Assembly (NCBI RefSeq): GCF_003002815.1
Contig: NZ_PVTF01000009.1
Location: 186,001 to 250,000, forward strand
Reading direction: 5' to 3'
From: Umezawaea tangerina
Lineage (GTDB): Bacteria > Actinomycetota > Actinomycetes > Mycobacteriales > Pseudonocardiaceae
Length of the DNA: 64,000 nucleotides
Numbering within the stretch: the stretch's first letter is position 1; each line of letters opens with the position of its first letter. The position numbers and the translations under genes are program-made. Shown here piece by piece: positions 5,494-58,561 of this stretch. The notes under the pieces are model-generated. The model made no database searches, had not been told where the DNA came from, and saw only the letters and a program-made list of their open reading frames with translations.

Positions 5494-6483
5494 TCAGGGA
5501 ACCGGGAGAGCGAGGCGGCCGGTGTCGAAGGCGGTCGGCCAGGTGGTGGTGTCGTCGGCGAGCGCCCCGGCGAACGTCGTGTCCTCGACGCGAGCGCCGG
5601 TGAGGTCGGCGCCGCGCAGGTCGGCTCCGGTGAGGTCGGCGTGGCTGAGGTCCGCGTCGCGCAGGACGGCGTCGCGCAGGACCGCACCTCCGAGGTAGGC
5701 GGAGGTGAGGGTGGCGCCGGTCAGCACGGCGGTCTCGAGGTTCGCCAGGCGCAGGTCGGTCGACTTCAGGTCGCTGCGGTCCAACCGTGTTCCGGGTAGC
5801 CAGGCGCGGGCGAGGTTGGCGTAGCGGAGCTGGGTGTCCGTCAGCCTGCCGTTGTGGATCTGCACGCTCCGCAGGTCCACGCGGGAGAGGTAGAGGCGGG
5901 GCGAGCCCGGTGTGGACGGGCGGCGGGCGAGGATGCCCATCGCCGCCTGGATGTCCGGGGTCCGGATCTGCAACCACGGGAGGTGCATGTCGACTTCGGC
6001 GCTCGGGTGCACCGGGCCGTCCGGACCGCCCACGGTCCACCGGCTGTGGTTGCGGACGAACGCGGCGAGGAGGAACTGGACCGAGTCGCGGTCGGCGGAG
6101 GAGTTGCGGGCGACGCGTTCGAGCGCGTAGACGCCGCCGATGCGGACGTCGACGTTGTCGCTGCCCAGCTGCTCCACCGCACGGGTGAAGCGTTCGGTGA
6201 TCTGCCCTTCGCGGTTGACCTGCACCTGCCGCCAGGTCGCCGCCGCACCACCGATCACCAGCAGACCGGCGGTCAACTGCAACAGCGCGGACCGGACGCT
6301 GTTCTGCAGCTGGCCCTGCGCCTGCTGGAGCTGGATCCGCGCACCCGCGTCGGACACCGCGTGCAGGTCGGCCTCCGGCAGCGCCGGGTACAGCAACGAG
6401 GGGAGCACCGTCAGGGAACCGACCACGAAGGCCAGGAGGCCGAGAACGCCCACCGCCGCGAGCAACACCGTTCGACGCGTCAC
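5494..6483 (-). CDS. Pentapeptide repeat-containing membrane protein
   Basis: A 329-residue protein with two N-terminal membrane segments (about residues 5-29 and 67-86) followed by a cytosolic part. The linker ITERFTRAVEQLGSDNVDVR and GVYALERVARNSSADRD is characteristic of actinobacterial membrane-anchored pentapeptide proteins. From about residue 190 to 310 come A(D/N)LXX-type repeats (for example DLSHADLTGADLRGADLTGA), which fold as a right-handed quadrilateral helix. No enzymatic residues are expected; such proteins are thought to act as scaffolds or binding surfaces. It converges on paralog A, with 13 bp between the two stops. Confidence 0.85.
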   Translation of the reverse strand: MTRRTVLLAAVGVLGLLAFVVGSLTVLPSLLYPALPEADLHAVSDAGARIQLQQAQGQLQNSVRSALLQLTAGLLVIGGAAATWRQVQVNREGQITERFTRAVEQLGSDNVDVRIGGVYALERVARNSSADRDSVQFLLAAFVRNHSRWTVGGPDGPVHPSAEVDMHLPWLQIRTPDIQAAMGILARRPSTPGSPRLYLSRVDLRSVQIHNGRLTDTQLRYANLARAWLPGTRLDRSDLKSTDLRLANLETAVLTGATLTSAYLGGAVLRDAVLRDADLSHADLTGADLRGADLTGARVEDTTFAGALADDTTTWPTAFDTGRLALPVP

Positions 6484-6566: not shown

Positions 6567-7090
6567 TCAGAGTGGAGGGAGGCGGGCCTCGACCTCGGCG
6601 AGGCCGTCGGGGGTGTCGGGGCTGTCGGGGTCCACGAAGCCGGTGGCCGTCTCGGCCTCCGCAACGGTGAGCGAGGTGCTGTTGGCGTCCGTGCCGTTGG
6701 TGTCTGTGCCGTTGGTGTCTGTGCCGTTGGTGTCTGTGCCGTTGGTGTCTGTGCCGTTGGTGTCTGTGCCGTTGGTGTCTGTGCCGTAGTCGAGGCCGGT
6801 GAAGTGGGTGTCGCCGAGCCCGAGCAGCGCACTGCCCAACGGGTGGAGGTCGCCGCTTCCGGGGCGGTCGATCAGGGTCGTGAAGTCCTGCCTGTCGGAG
6901 GTGGTGCGGAACCCGGTCCAGGCCACGGAGGTGCTGGCGCCTTCCGCAGCCAGCAGTCCTTCTGCGCCTCCGCTGATGGCGAACAGGCTGACGACCAGGA
7001 CACCGGCGGCCGGCGTGGGCCCGCTCTTGCGGTGGTCGGTGAACTTGCCCGCCAGGCAGGTCAGCCGGATCGGAGGGAGAAGGGTCTCAT
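6567..7090 (-). pseudogene. Degenerate paralog B of the 4830-5480 membrane protein
   Basis: The frame ending in TGA at 6567 contains a membrane segment (AAGVLVVSLFAISGG) and a C-terminal domain homologous to paralog A (VAWTGFR, DRPGSGDLHPLGSALL, DTHFTGLDYG). The roughly 70-residue middle region of paralog A, including its two Cys, is missing. I see no in-frame ATG, GTG or TTG between the end of the upstream Lrp gene and the membrane segment. The ATG that overlaps the Lrp stop (7088-7090, ATGA) enters a different frame that stops after nine codons. A frameshift near the start is therefore likely. A six-copy TDTNG insertion sits in the loop that reads DSEPNG in paralog A. Start and status are uncertain; it could still be made by coupled or in-Lrp initiation. 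Confidence 0.5.
6676..6789 (-). repeat. 15-bp tandem repeat encoding Gly-Thr-Asp-Thr-Asn
   Basis: Six perfect copies of gtgccgttggtgtct (6691-6780) are flanked by one diverged copy (6676-6690) and a 9-base partial copy (6781-6789). On the minus strand each unit encodes five residues of the repeat (GTDTN)n, so copy-number change keeps frame. The array lies inside the coding frame of paralog B. Confidence 0.95.
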
Positions 7091-7569
7091 CTGCGGCGGC
7101 GGGCCGGGGTGGCGGGTTCGATGACAGGGCTGCGGATGTGTTCGTAGACGACGCTGGTGCGGACGTCCGCGACCTCGGGGCGTTGGGTGAGGCGGTCGAT
7201 GACGAAGGCGTAGAGGAACTTGTTGTCCGGGACGGCGACGTGGATGAGGAAGTCCTCGCCACCGGACACGACGAACACGCCGACGGTCTCGGGCAGCCGG
7301 GAGGCCCATTCGCGGAAGGCCTCGATGTTCGCGCGGGACGGTGGGCGGATGCGGACGGCGATCAGCGCCTGGACGGGGCGGCCGACCTCCTCCAGGTCGA
7401 GGTCGACGAGGAAGCCGCGGATGACGCCGCGCTCGCGGAGCGAGCGGACGCGCTCCAGCGAGGTGGACGGGGAGACCCCGGTGGCGGCGGCGAGCTCGCG
7501 GTTGGTGCGCCGTGCGTCGCGCTGCAGTTCCCGCAGTAGTGCCTGATCTAGTTCGTCCAACTCGGCCAT
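7087..7569 (-). CDS. Lrp/AsnC family transcriptional regulator
   Basis: A 160-residue regulator. The N-terminal helix-turn-helix is LDQALLRELQRDARRTNREL and AAATGVSPSTSLERVRSLRE (about residues 5-45). The C-terminal RAM effector domain includes VQALIAVRIRPPS and VGVFVVSGGEDFLIHVAVPD. Members bind amino acids or related small molecules and act as octameric repressors or activators. It is divergent from the DUF2000 gene with about 125 bp between starts containing several dyads, which makes that gene its likely target. Its stop overlaps an ATG (ATGA) belonging to the degenerate paralog B region. Confidence 0.92.
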   Translation of the reverse strand: MAELDELDQALLRELQRDARRTNRELAAATGVSPSTSLERVRSLRERGVIRGFLVDLDLEEVGRPVQALIAVRIRPPSRANIEAFREWASRLPETVGVFVVSGGEDFLIHVAVPDNKFLYAFVIDRLTQRPEVADVRTSVVYEHIRSPVIEPATPARRRR

Positions 7570-9381: not shown

Positions 9382-9541
9382 TTCTGGGGCCGTGTGCGTG
9401 GTGGATTGCGTTGCGGTGCCTGGCTTTGGTTGGGTGCTGCCTCGTGGTGAAGCTCGGTTCCGGCTCTCCCGCCGTGCGAGCCTGGCTCTCGGGCCTCCCA
9501 CCGACTGGCGAAGCCCAGCCCCCGGCGCGCGATTGTCTCAA

Positions 9542-9596
9542 TGCTTGATCTTGCTTGTCAAGACGATAGGGCTGTCTTGACAAGCAAGATCAAGCA
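9542..9596. repeat. Long perfect hairpin of repeat element copy 1
   Basis: A perfect inverted repeat with 23-bp arms (9542-9564 and 9574-9596) and a 9-nt loop. The inner 12 bp of each arm (GCTTGTCAAGAC / GTCTTGACAAGC) and the 9-nt loop length are shared with the hairpin at 58378-58438; the outer arm sequences differ but still pair perfectly. It lies downstream of the DUF574 gene and faces the convergent dehydrogenase gene, so a bidirectional terminator is one possible role. There is no T-run. Confidence 0.9.
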
Positions 9597-9630
9597 GGAG
9601 GGCGCTGTGGATCGGGGGCAGAGGGGAAGT

Positions 9631-9840
9631 CTGGCTTCGCCAGCATCGAGCTGCGCTCGACACTGCATCCTCGGCTTCGCCGTCGGACGGGGCATCCGCG
9701 CTTCGCGGCGGACAGGGCATCCTTGCTTCGCTGCGGACAAGGCCCCAGGCGCTTCGCGCCGGATGCGCGCTGGCGGGCTGCGCCCAGCTGTGGATCCTTG
9801 GCTGCGCCGTCGGACGGGCAGCCTCGCTGCGCGTCGGAGT
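9631..9840. repeat. Array of short dyads with ~25-bp period (repeat element copy 1)
   Basis: About nine units occur, each centred on GC-TTC-GC or GC-TGC-GC, with centres near 9637, 9653, 9677, 9703, 9728, 9754, 9780, 9804 and 9829 (spacings 16, 24, 26, 25, 26, 26, 24, 25). Several units form perfect mini-stems: CTGGC-TTC-GCCAG, TCGAGC-TGC-GCTCGA, CGGC-TTC-GCCG, GGCGC-TTC-GCGCC and GGGC-TGC-GCCC. Positions 9716-9775 match 58222-58281 (opposite strand) at 57 of 60 bases. Together with the hairpin this fills most of the 480-bp gap 9382-9861; no credible gene is present. Confidence 0.85.
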
Positions 9841-9861
9841 GGGTTGTGGGGTTGGGTTTGG

Positions 9862-10899
9862 TTAGGGGATGAGGACTAGGCGGATTGGGTTGTTGGTGCG
9901 GGTTGCTAGTTGGTGGACGGCGTCGGTGGCGTTTGTGAGGGGGATGTGGGCGCTGATGGAGTTGGTGAAGTCCAGGCGGTGGTAGGTGGTGAGGGCGACC
10001 AAGGCCTCTACGTCTTCTGGGGTGGAGCCGAAGTGGCCCAGTAGGCGTTGGTTGCGGACGCTGAAGCCGATGCCGTCGGTGAGGGTCAGGGGGCCGTTGG
10101 AGAGGCCGACCAGGACCAGGGTGCCGGAGAGGCCGAGGACTTTGGTGGCTTGGTCGTGGATGGTGGGGGTGCCTGCGAAGTCGAAGGCGTGGTCGAGGCC
10201 GCGGCCGGTGGTGGCGGTGAGGACGCGGTCGGTGAAGTCGGCGGCGGTCGGGTCGAGGGTGAGGTCGGCGCCGAAGGTGGAGGCTCTTGCGCGGGCTTCG
10301 GGGAGGGGGTCGATGGCGATGATGGGGGCGGCGCCGGTGAACCTGAGCAGTTGCACGGCGTGAGCGCCTAGGCCGCCGATGCCCCAGACGCCGACGGACT
10401 GGGCGGGGCGGACTTGGGCGGTGGACATGATGGCGGCGTAGGGGGTGGAGACGGCGTCGGGGATGATGGCGGCCTGGTCGAACGGCAGGTGGTCGGGAAT
10501 GGGGACGAGAGTGTCGTGCCTGGCCAGGGCGTACTGGGCCCAGCCGCCGTCGTAGTGCACTCCCCTGGTCCGGCCGTTGAGGCAAGGGCGTTGGCGCACG
10601 CACAGTTCGCACGCGCCGCAGGACTGACCGGCCTGCAGGATGACGCGGCGGCCGACCGTGACGGACGACGGGACGTCCGGGCCGATGACGGCGACGGTGC
10701 CGGACACCTCGTGGCCCAGGGTCAGCTTGGGGTGGTCGTTCTGCCAGACGCGGAGCGTGCCGTCGATCAGGTGCAGGTCGGACAGGCAGACGCCCGCCGC
10801 CGCGACGGCGACCAGGACCTCACCCGGACCCGGTACGGGGACGGGCACCTCCTCCACCGCGAAGTCCAACGTCGTGAGGTCGAGCCTTCCCGCGAGCAT
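9862..10899 (-). CDS. Zinc-dependent alcohol dehydrogenase (MDR superfamily)
   Basis: A 345-residue medium-chain dehydrogenase/reductase. Catalytic zinc ligands are visible in AAGVCLSDLHLIDG and LTLGHEVSG; the structural zinc site is CGACELCVRQRPC; the NAD(P)-binding Rossmann motif is VWGIGGLGAHAVQLLR. It should oxidise an alcohol or reduce a carbonyl compound, with unknown substrate. ATG 10899 is preferred over an in-frame start 15 codons earlier because GGAGGACGTG lies directly before it and MLAGRLDLTTLDF matches the family N-terminus. The 3' half has unusual codon choice: its plus strand is rich in G and T. Confidence 0.9.
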   Translation of the reverse strand: MLAGRLDLTTLDFAVEEVPVPVPGPGEVLVAVAAAGVCLSDLHLIDGTLRVWQNDHPKLTLGHEVSGTVAVIGPDVPSSVTVGRRVILQAGQSCGACELCVRQRPCLNGRTRGVHYDGGWAQYALARHDTLVPIPDHLPFDQAAIIPDAVSTPYAAIMSTAQVRPAQSVGVWGIGGLGAHAVQLLRFTGAAPIIAIDPLPEARARASTFGADLTLDPTAADFTDRVLTATTGRGLDHAFDFAGTPTIHDQATKVLGLSGTLVLVGLSNGPLTLTDGIGFSVRNQRLLGHFGSTPEDVEALVALTTYHRLDFTNSISAHIPLTNATDAVHQLATRTNNPIRLVLIP

Positions 10900-58081: not shown

Positions 58082-58214
58082 CCCCAAGCAGCAACAGCAA
58101 CAGCAACACAAGCACAAGCCACCTCAAGAAAAACACGCACCGACGGCGCAAAACCACAGCACAACACGGCACTGGCCGCCAACCACAAACCACCGCGACC
58201 ACAGAACAACGATG

Positions 58215-58330
58215 GCGAAGCCGCCAGCGCGCATCCGGCGCGGAGCGCCTGGGGCCCTGTCCGCAGCGCAGCAAGGATGCCTGGTCCGACGCGCAGCGAG
58301 GATGCCCTGTCCGTCGCGGAGCGTCGGATG
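58215..58330. repeat. Array of short dyads with ~25-bp period (repeat element copy 2)
   Basis: Five units with centres near 58218, 58243, 58269, 58294 and 58319 (spacings 25, 26, 25, 25), each GC-NNN-GC with centre GAA, GGA or GCA (the complement of the TTC/TGC type in copy 1). The unit GGCGC-GGA-GCGCC is a 5-bp mini-stem. Positions 58222-58281 match the complement of 9716-9775 at 57 of 60 bases, so this is the same element in opposite orientation. Confidence 0.85.
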
Positions 58331-58377
58331 CCCTCCCCACCCACACCCCCCCCACCCACCCCGACGAGAAGCCATCT

Positions 58378-58438
58378 CTATGCCCACTCCCGCTTGTCAA
58401 GACAGCTTCACCGTCTTGACAAGCGGGAGTGGGCATAG
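58378..58438. repeat. Long perfect hairpin of repeat element copy 2
   Basis: Perfect 26-bp arms (58378-58403 and 58413-58438) around a 9-nt loop. The inner 12 bp equal those of the hairpin at 9542-9596, while the outer arms are different yet fully complementary. It lies between the convergent epimerase and FAD-oxidoreductase genes; together with the array it fills the 480-bp gap 58082-58561, in which no gene is visible. Confidence 0.9.
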
Positions 58439-58561
58439 AACACTCGGCGAGCCGGGGTGGAACCCCTCACCCCACACCCACCCAAGGGTCCCCCACCCGC
58501 GAAGCCCCCCCAACGCACAAGGTACTCACCAGGTCCGACAACTCCCGGCCACCGAACCCCC

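Follow-up and report, generated by a model that had tools for sequence, protein, structure and literature searches.

Several kinds of dispersed hairpins and paired repeats are known from bacterial genomes. REP hairpins carry a short conserved 5' tetranucleotide of the GTAG type at their foot, BIMEs bind gyrase or IHF, and the MITE-like ERIC, RUP and Correia repeats are dispersed and non-coding and have paired ends. Intrinsic terminators, including the bidirectional ones of convergent genes, place a hairpin at gene 3' ends and show compensatory pairs. REP/BIME elements with RAYT, described in enterobacteria and Pseudomonas, are high-copy intergenic hairpins in composite units (see also PMC2817692), and stem-loop repeat families have been described for 40 bacterial genomes (PMC2267715). 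In AICE cargo and defence islands, GntR/XRE, RepSA and FtsK genes lie beside defence genes (PMC11706625).

The window analysed here is a stretch of 64,000 nucleotides from the genome of Umezawaea tangerina, and it holds two copies of an element that is the same kind of object as the stem-loop families, to which we liken it by kind and not family by family. It belongs to a large and apparently undescribed family of structured intergenic elements. No description of it was recognised in the open-licence literature among the matches listed for Amycolatopsis, Umezawaea, Pseudonocardiaceae repeats, bidirectional terminators and AICE leaders; the words "hairpin", "non-coding" and "conserved intergenic" do not occur in the main text of PMC11706625, and the available part of the Kutzneria genome paper (PMC4210621) holds nothing on such an element. 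Our preferred reading, to which we assign a probability of about 45%, is that of a putative cis-acting hairpin working as RNA, which would stop or gate RNA polymerase on read-through transcripts. The parts of the two copies are as follows, the strand given being the one on which an earlier note on this DNA read the hairpin, hereafter the reading strand.

9518..9524, plus strand: 5' half of the base stem P1 of copy 1, GCCCCCG, read from the sequence
9525..9541, plus strand: conserved 5' internal-loop strand of copy 1 (..CGATTGTCTCAA), with an A[TG]TGT block found in nearly all of 69 aligned rows
9542..9596, plus strand: hairpin of copy 1, perfect, 23 bp, with a 9-nt loop
9542-9554/9584-9596, plus strand: variable arm P2 of copy 1; 9555-9564/9574-9583: its constant tip stem P3; 9565-9573: its loop
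9597..9612, plus strand: conserved 3' internal-loop strand of copy 1 (GGAGGGCGCTGTGGAT), from the aligned copies
9613..9619, plus strand: 3' half of P1 of copy 1, CGGGGGC, from the sequence and the pairing count over 69 copies
about 9630..9839, plus strand: mini-dyad array of copy 1, GC-TNC-GC (GC-GNA-GC on the minus strand), a separate layer
58453..58459, minus strand: 5' half of P1 of copy 2, CACCCCG, read from the sequence
58377..58439, minus strand: hairpin of copy 2, perfect, 27 bp, with a 9-nt loop
58423-58439/58377-58393, minus strand: arms of copy 2; 58413-58422/58394-58403: its tip stem; 58404-58412: its loop
58357..58363, minus strand: 3' half of P1 of copy 2, CGGGGTG, read from the sequence
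about 58206..58332, minus strand: mini-dyad array of copy 2, read from the sequence

The earlier note had reported a near-identical 60-base block in both copies, in which we count by eye 3 differences in 61 bases, and perfect hairpins with a 9-nt loop on opposite strands at the two loci, which we find as well (23 bp in copy 1 and 27 bp in copy 2). Its central observation, that the inner arms are equal while the outer arms differ and still pair, is true of both copies, whose common tip is CTTGTCAAGAC-N9-GTCTTGACAAG, and was found again in 279 copies and in a 69-row alignment. The proposal of a composite element is changed: the unit is the hairpin with its base stem, and of the hairpin-bearing genomes tested only two Umezawaea genomes have the terminal unit of the dyad array. 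We count the base stem P1 and both strands of the internal loop as parts of the element, whose core does not include the array.

From the outside inward on the reading strand, the element consists of P1, the 5' loop strand, P2, P3 and the loop, followed by the mirror arms and the 3' loop strand. P1 reads GCACCCCGA/TCGGGGTGC in Amycolatopsis copies and GCATCCC/GGGATGC in an Actinokineospora copy. The 5' loop strand is conserved as A[TG]TGT.. and the 3' loop strand as GGCTTCG.AT; the free arm P2 is mostly 13-17 bp long, P3 is TTGTCAAGRY, and the loop is mostly GGGAAAGAT or GATAGGGCT-like. Among 279 distinct copies (a set that includes 15 broken ones, and for which a version without those 15 was also computed), the tip is near constant and the outer 13 pairs are free in sequence. 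These outer arm positions hold 3496 Watson-Crick pairs, 22 G.T and 109 other combinations in 3627 cells (96.4% Watson-Crick), and most of them show all four Watson-Crick pair types, so that the outer-arm pairing is kept in copies other than the two that the earlier note compared.

In the 69-copy alignment, 95.2% of the pairs are standard. Cells changed on both sides number 503, as against 154+-10 in shuffled alignments (0 of 500 shuffles reach this value), and the covariation score is 0.575, compared with 0.131+-0.007 shuffled and 0.084-0.131 slid. Three of five covariation measures beat all 500 shuffles; the other two, which count the pairs showing a change on both sides and the further pair types, show no excess over them (94 and 239 of 500). 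The base stem P1, which is helix 1 of this alignment, also covaries, with 84.8% of its cells paired and both-side changes in 5 of 8 pairs. Related copies are present in these pairing counts, which are therefore not counts of independent events.

The Rfam search of the whole window gave 0 matches. At E up to 1, positions 9450-9900 gave 7 matches, all far under their gathering scores, and 20 low-copy loci at E up to 0.05 gave 1, which is below its gathering score and outside the hairpin. Other repeats were seen by eye beside some copies. In three Amycolatopsis loci (L094, L098 and L204), a second palindromic repeat with CCCCAATGTGGCATTGGGTGC... units and a CCTCACGG-type repeat lie downstream of the hairpin; in two A. 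jejuensis loci (L112 and L184), a CCTTCACGG-type repeat replaces its 3' flank; and in two further loci (L075 and L088), tandem repeats of about 34 bp (GGCTTCCCACAGGTGGGAGGGCAGGGCC) lie upstream of it.

The earlier note had asked for a search of the whole genome and of relatives, and this search returned many more copies. The U. tangerina genome (G000) has 176 sites for the tip pattern with up to 3 mismatches and 0 for the reversed pattern; a slightly looser core with 1 mismatch gives 177 sites. Two other Umezawaea genomes have 78 and 139 hairpin copies, and of 387 further genomes searched in the bacterial family, 18 have 1-87. With the strict core (1 mismatch), the element is found in 21 of 390 family genomes and 4 of 46 genera, at 1-177 sites per genome, and the reversed control gives 0 throughout. 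The named genera with the core, among the matches listed, are Amycolatopsis, Umezawaea and Actinokineospora, where we infer that our genus g16 is Amycolatopsis and g58 is Actinokineospora.

A covariance model of the element built on the 69 copies has matches in 128 of the 390 family genomes and 16 of the 46 genera (E<=0.001), the weakest of which may be due to chance; at most 8 candidates were scored per genome, so these copy numbers are floors. In a phylum-wide sample of 396 genomes, the model at E<=1e-4 matched only the element's own genome, under strict filters and 8 candidates per genome that can miss weak relatives. A phage origin was considered and rejected, since viral contigs gave 0 exact matches to the core pattern. 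Genome G113, of genus g22, has 45 model matches, among them the loci L359, L382 and L383. The one that was inspected is a different long perfect hairpin of 28 bp with the loop ACGCTTCACC, and the matches of this genome, which look like another hairpin on the basis of that one inspection, were left out of the analysis.

The dyad array has a much narrower distribution. Its terminal unit occurs 198 times in G000 and 82 times in a second Umezawaea genome (G002), and 0 times in U. endophytica (G001) and in three other hairpin-bearing genomes tested; of two genomes that lack the hairpin, one has it a single time, with a mismatch. Only Umezawaea genomes thus have the array among the hairpin carriers tested, and we treat it as a separate layer and not as part of the core. 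The spacing of 24-26 bp reported earlier is correct as a mode and incorrect as a strict period, the commonest spacings in Umezawaea copies being 26, 24, 16, 25 and 23. In 77 Umezawaea copies, 466 of 607 GC-NNN-GC words on the 3' side of the hairpin have a T-N-C middle, that is, GNA on the other strand; in a control section of the window (13.2-54 kb), the T-N-C middle is found in 32 of 683 words and G-N-A in 33 of 683. Array units with four bases, TNNC, were also seen by eye. The extraordinarily stable DNA mini-hairpins are defined by a GNA or GNNA loop on a closing stem of two or more G-C pairs (PMC4686876).

The element shares with REP sequences the character of a high-copy extragenic palindrome, with 177 sites in G000 and, among the copies studied for gene context, none inside a called gene. 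Conserved blocks lie at the foot of its hairpin. However, the Y1 transposase domain PF01797 is absent from all 80 genomes of genus g16 (inferred Amycolatopsis) and from all 3 Umezawaea genomes, and is found in 1 of 4 other hairpin-bearing genomes, in a search whose control gave matches in 5 of 14 named genomes. Unlike REP/BIME elements, the element is thus without Y1/RAYT in the 80 g16 and 3 Umezawaea genomes, and it has a longer stem of free sequence, a near-constant tip and loop, and a covarying base stem. On this transposase test we reject the REP/BIME membership that the earlier note had offered among its possible identities. The sole Y1_Tnp match among the 87 genomes searched is in G064 (contig 1, 3353181-3353546), where there is one hairpin core, unlinked to it.

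With ERIC, RUP and Correia repeats, the element has in common that it is dispersed and non-coding and has paired ends; it differs in that copies at the same locus of two species have different arms, and no transposase ends were identified. With intrinsic terminators, it shares a stable hairpin at gene 3' ends and compensatory pairs. In contrast to them, it mostly lacks a T-run and has a sequence-conserved loop and internal loop: a run of at least 3 T within 15 nt 3' of the hairpin is found on the opposite strand in 0 of 279 copies, and on the reading strand T3-T5 follows the hairpin in 75 of 279, of which 45 have T4-T5. The canonical intrinsic terminator, also among the identities first suggested, hence does not serve as a general description of these hairpins.

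The best-surviving alternative, which we consider rather unlikely, is a non-autonomous mobile single-stranded DNA hairpin, REP-like or MITE-like, that would be bound by a protein of a mobile element, such as an AICE RepSA initiator, and spread in trans. The patchy high copy numbers of the strict core speak for it, as do the homologues that adjoin RepSA and FtsK genes in the examples scanned and the array loops of the GNA type, a class of extraordinarily stable DNA mini-hairpins. The distribution of PF01797 given above speaks against it, and so does the gene neighbourhood: no recurrent mobiliser-like neighbour gene was seen by eye in a set of 181 copies, the biggest neighbour clusters resembling common paralogues, for example ABC transporters and parts of NRPS. 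Moreover, 21 of the 50 G002 copies compared have both flanks in common with one of the 113 G000 copies compared (of its 177), 20 of them in the same orientation and 1 in the opposite one, and recent jumping is therefore not the rule. The element was found flipped within the same intergenic gap of two species in L044/L213 and in L112/L123.

Retention at orthologous loci speaks for our preferred reading of a hairpin acting on transcripts, and the low-copy copies add a second context to it. We searched again 30 genomes with few covariance matches (one of which, G113, proved to have its 45) and took 20 low-copy regions of 12-14 kb, of which 18 were analysed and the two of G113 left out. In 16 of the 18 loci, a 27-nt block (CTTGATCCCATAGAGCCAAGTTCGGCA, up to 5 mismatches) lies 157-910 nt on the 3' side of the hairpin, the spacer between them being 228-287 nt in 11 of the 16. 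The orientation of three loci (L367, L374 and L375) was set from this downstream block. A same-strand ORF of at least 150 aa and low GC (<0.60) starts within 900 nt of the block in 15 of the 18 loci. The low-copy loci are largely related, and these counts are not counts of independent events.

The scan of first cargo ORFs covered 14 of the 15, and PADLOC models matched 9 of them at 1e-5, a raw count without a background control in which some matches are weak (L370, L371 and, in part, L384). At the same threshold, L366, L368, L376, L377 and L385 gave no match. The cargo includes PtuA/PtuB (E 7e-142 and 2e-39), LmuA/LmuB (6e-21 and 4e-100), NsnA twice (8e-65 and 3e-61), PD-Lambda-5_A (4e-189) and SoFic (8e-22), and the Pfam domains TIR_2, HEPN_Apea, SLFN_AlbA_2, GmrSD_N and Fic. 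Near single examples, Pfam gave RepSA and GntR in L373, FtsK in L370, L372 and L373, and an integrase fragment just under its cut-off in L371; the RepSA, GntR and FtsK domains in the examples scanned indicate AICEs, where such genes lie beside defence genes as they do here. The low-copy version has no fixed gene partner, five loci of the Amycolatopsis group sharing one place and the others differing.

The block itself is more widespread. In the form CTTGATCCYATAGAGSCRARTTCGGCA with 2 mismatches, it is present in 214 of 390 family genomes and 28 of 46 genera, with a reversed control of 0 and, among the matches listed, 1-6 sites per genome (family-wide, loci L366-L415). Of 30 further loci chosen for the block only, 3 have a hairpin-model match in the expected orientation upstream of it (L398 at 7e-6, L396 at 1e-3 and L401 at 1e-2), and 27 have none at E<=1. 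The longest ORF near the block is of low GC in 18 of the 30, and 10 of those 18 were scanned, with 4 PADLOC matches (AriAB/PtuA-like, DzbB weakly, MTase_II and AbiD).

This arrangement raises another alternative, that the element is a regulatory leader RNA, an attenuator or a sensor, for AICE cargo, and that the chromosomal copies are dispersed derivatives whose function has changed or been lost. The order of hairpin, spacer, conserved block and same-strand cargo in the 15 loci, the very different cargo behind the same leader, the cargo-sense bias of 39 G.U to 1 A.C described below and the diverged hairpins upstream of the 3 further blocks are all in its favour. Nevertheless, the spacer is longer than would be expected of an attenuator, the block extends over more genomes than the hairpin (214 of 390 against 128 of 390, the latter under strict filters), and most block loci have the block without a hairpin match, which means that block and cargo can do without the hairpin. 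We therefore hold the leader reading to be unlikely.

For the preferred reading, on which RNA polymerase would be stopped or gated, the genes around the high-copy copies are of direct interest. The gene context was taken from our own codon-bias gene calls and not from an annotation, for copies in called gaps of <1600 bp (112 in G000, 45 in G002 and 73 in other genomes), with gaps of 80-1600 bp for comparison. Convergent gaps hold 68 of 112 copies in G000 as against 6 of 102 other gaps, 22 of 45 in G002 as against 2 of 35, and 29 of 73 in the other genomes as against 21 of 194, and both window copies also lie between convergent genes by the home-made caller. Divergent gaps hold 3 of 112 copies in G000, compared with 57 of 102 other gaps. 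Where the flanking genes are co-oriented, the opposite strand is the transcribed one in 69 of 99 copies (p 1e-4), and in 70 of 100 in a second count. The view of the earlier note, that of an intergenic repeat family with conserved structure, covariation and a preference for convergent genes, is in agreement with these results. In the window, two adjoining ORFs on the minus strand, at 6567-7262 and 5494-6483, were seen by eye to have, one, many GTDTN and, the other, pentapeptide-like repeats.

The question of which strand folds was approached through the non-Watson-Crick cells, in which related copies are again not independent. In the low-copy stems whose strand is set by the block (16 of 18 loci, 13 pairs per copy), there are 157 Watson-Crick pairs, 39 G.U, 1 A.C and 11 others in the sense of the cargo. 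A count by tip orientation in 19 copies that partly overlap these, from 19 of the 30 low-copy loci with a tip matching the pattern, gave again 39 to 1. In the 279 high-copy copies, the opposite strand has 50 G.U, 22 A.C and 59 other cells. When copies are sorted by context (48 of the 279 could not be placed), the bias is weak in tandem copies with the opposite strand transcribed (12 G.U vs 8 A.C), and non-Watson-Crick cells are commonest in the few divergent copies, of which there are 12, with 16 such cells in 156, as against 50 of 1547 in 119 convergent ones.

In folding corrected by dinucleotide shuffles, the opposite strand has the lower z-score in 17 of the 19 low-copy copies (means -8.1 vs -6.2), in 16 of 25 sampled from 113 G000 copies (-9.7 vs -8.8), in 18 of 25 sampled from 50 G002 copies (-8.7 vs -7.6) and in 17 of 25 sampled from 102 other copies (-11.1 vs -9.6). 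Raw RNA folding energies point to the reading strand in the high-copy families: the opposite strand folds more stably in just 2 of 113 copies in G000, 14 of 50 in G002, 2 of 11 in G001, and 0 of 15 and 2 of 87 in the remaining high-copy copies. Base composition seems to account for this preference, which the z-scores reverse, though not in every copy. In the main Umezawaea type, the lower stem shows invariant G.T on the reading strand. Judged from the G.U bias, the strand transcribed in tandem copies, the array loops and the shuffle-corrected folding, the strand that folds is probably the one opposite to that of the earlier note; the raw energies, the invariant G.T and the T-runs given above speak against this. 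Since single-stranded DNA tolerates G.T as well, a strand bias by itself is no proof of RNA.

In the terminators of Bacillus cereus, G.U makes up 4.02% of the ancestral pairs, and substitutions of A-U and G-C pairs mostly yield G.U (PMC5381666). Such a role of G.U as the usual intermediate fits the AICE copies and, unlike in B. cereus, not the high-copy ones. Two-strand use between convergent genes, or template-switch correction, would explain the near-strict Watson-Crick pairs of the latter. If two-strand use were the reason, a sense-strand G.U bias would be expected in the tandem copies, where it is only faint (12 vs 8). An initial idea that the element acts as DNA only, G.U being as rare as chance among the non-Watson-Crick cells, was revised once A.C had been given a count of its own and the low-copy relatives had been taken into account.

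A DNA-level nucleoprotein site between convergent genes, comparable to gyrase- or IHF-binding BIMEs and with cruciform extrusion, is very unlikely in our estimation. It would be in keeping with the convergent bias, the near-strict Watson-Crick pairing of the high-copy families and the GNA-type loops; however, the conserved sequence sits in loop and internal-loop positions, and a one-strand G.U bias is unexpected for a cruciform, since G.T on one strand is A.C on the other.

The evolution of the arms was followed at the 21 loci shared by G000 and G002, where the tip stems have an identity of 0.96. Arm identity is 0.45 and 0.49, as against 0.42 and 0.45 in random cross-genome pairs, which leaves a slight trace of the locus (permutation p values of 0.06 and 0.009), and it is below the identity within a genome, 0.52-0.53 in G000 and 0.59-0.61 in G002. 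The G002 arms are less perfect, with 238 of 273 Watson-Crick cells at these loci, compared with 271 of 273 in G000. In pairs of copies differing at one arm position, which are not independent, both sides are changed in 375 and one side in 48. Orthologous sets of Amycolatopsis show a similar variety: L123, L149 and L168 all differ in their arms, L094 equals L098, both being unlike L135, and L202 equals L204; one A. jejuensis copy lies in the same gap in the opposite orientation. Locus and structure are kept while arm sequence is mostly replaced and copies of the same genome stay alike, a pattern of concerted evolution by conversion or repeated correction. Template switching has been proposed to keep hairpins perfect (PMC8794818), and here template-switch correction and selection probably act jointly to maintain the perfect arms. 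We give hardly any credence to arms without function, their pairing a by-product of such correction and the copies homogenised by ectopic gene conversion, as the excess of both-side changes and the likeness within genomes could suggest, because the tip, the loop and the strands of the internal loop hardly vary from genus to genus, unlike the free arms, and the low-copy relatives keep G.U and mismatches, so that the constraint is real, and because the gene context is non-random.

We therefore return to the putative RNA hairpin as the preferred reading. A transcript entering the element would fold the base stem, the conserved internal loop, the free-sequence stem and the constant tip, and the folded hairpin would stop or gate RNA polymerase directly or through a protein that reads the internal loop and the constant tip. 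Where the hairpin lies between flank and cargo, as in integrative elements, it could insulate the cargo or gate it; in Umezawaea and some Amycolatopsis species, it would have spread to many gene 3' ends, where the chromosomal copies may insulate neighbouring, mostly convergent, transcription units. Transcription of the element, its part in termination or insulation, a recognising protein and the mode by which copies spread are what we infer from structure and context. Taken as a whole, the comparisons describe a real and old family of structured elements without an Rfam match, with a putative job at the transcript level. A wider formulation, which we regard as doubtful, is that a structured RNA borne by mobile elements gates interchangeable anti-phage cargo throughout the family and has been co-opted in some genera as a genome-wide insulator, in up to about 180 copies, with a stem free to change if it stays paired.

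With hundreds of copies, a fixed tip, free arms and the same loci in sister species, the family is a rare natural experiment on the evolution of stems, and copy sets of this kind would make it possible to tell selection on RNA from bidirectional use and from template-switch correction. The connection with AICE cargo would give unrelated defence systems a shared, portable handle on their silencing or expression. The element may in this way serve as a sequence beacon for new defence systems, and the 27-nt block as a possible beacon for AICE defence cargo. For a group of antibiotic producers, the finding may add an element of transcription insulation.
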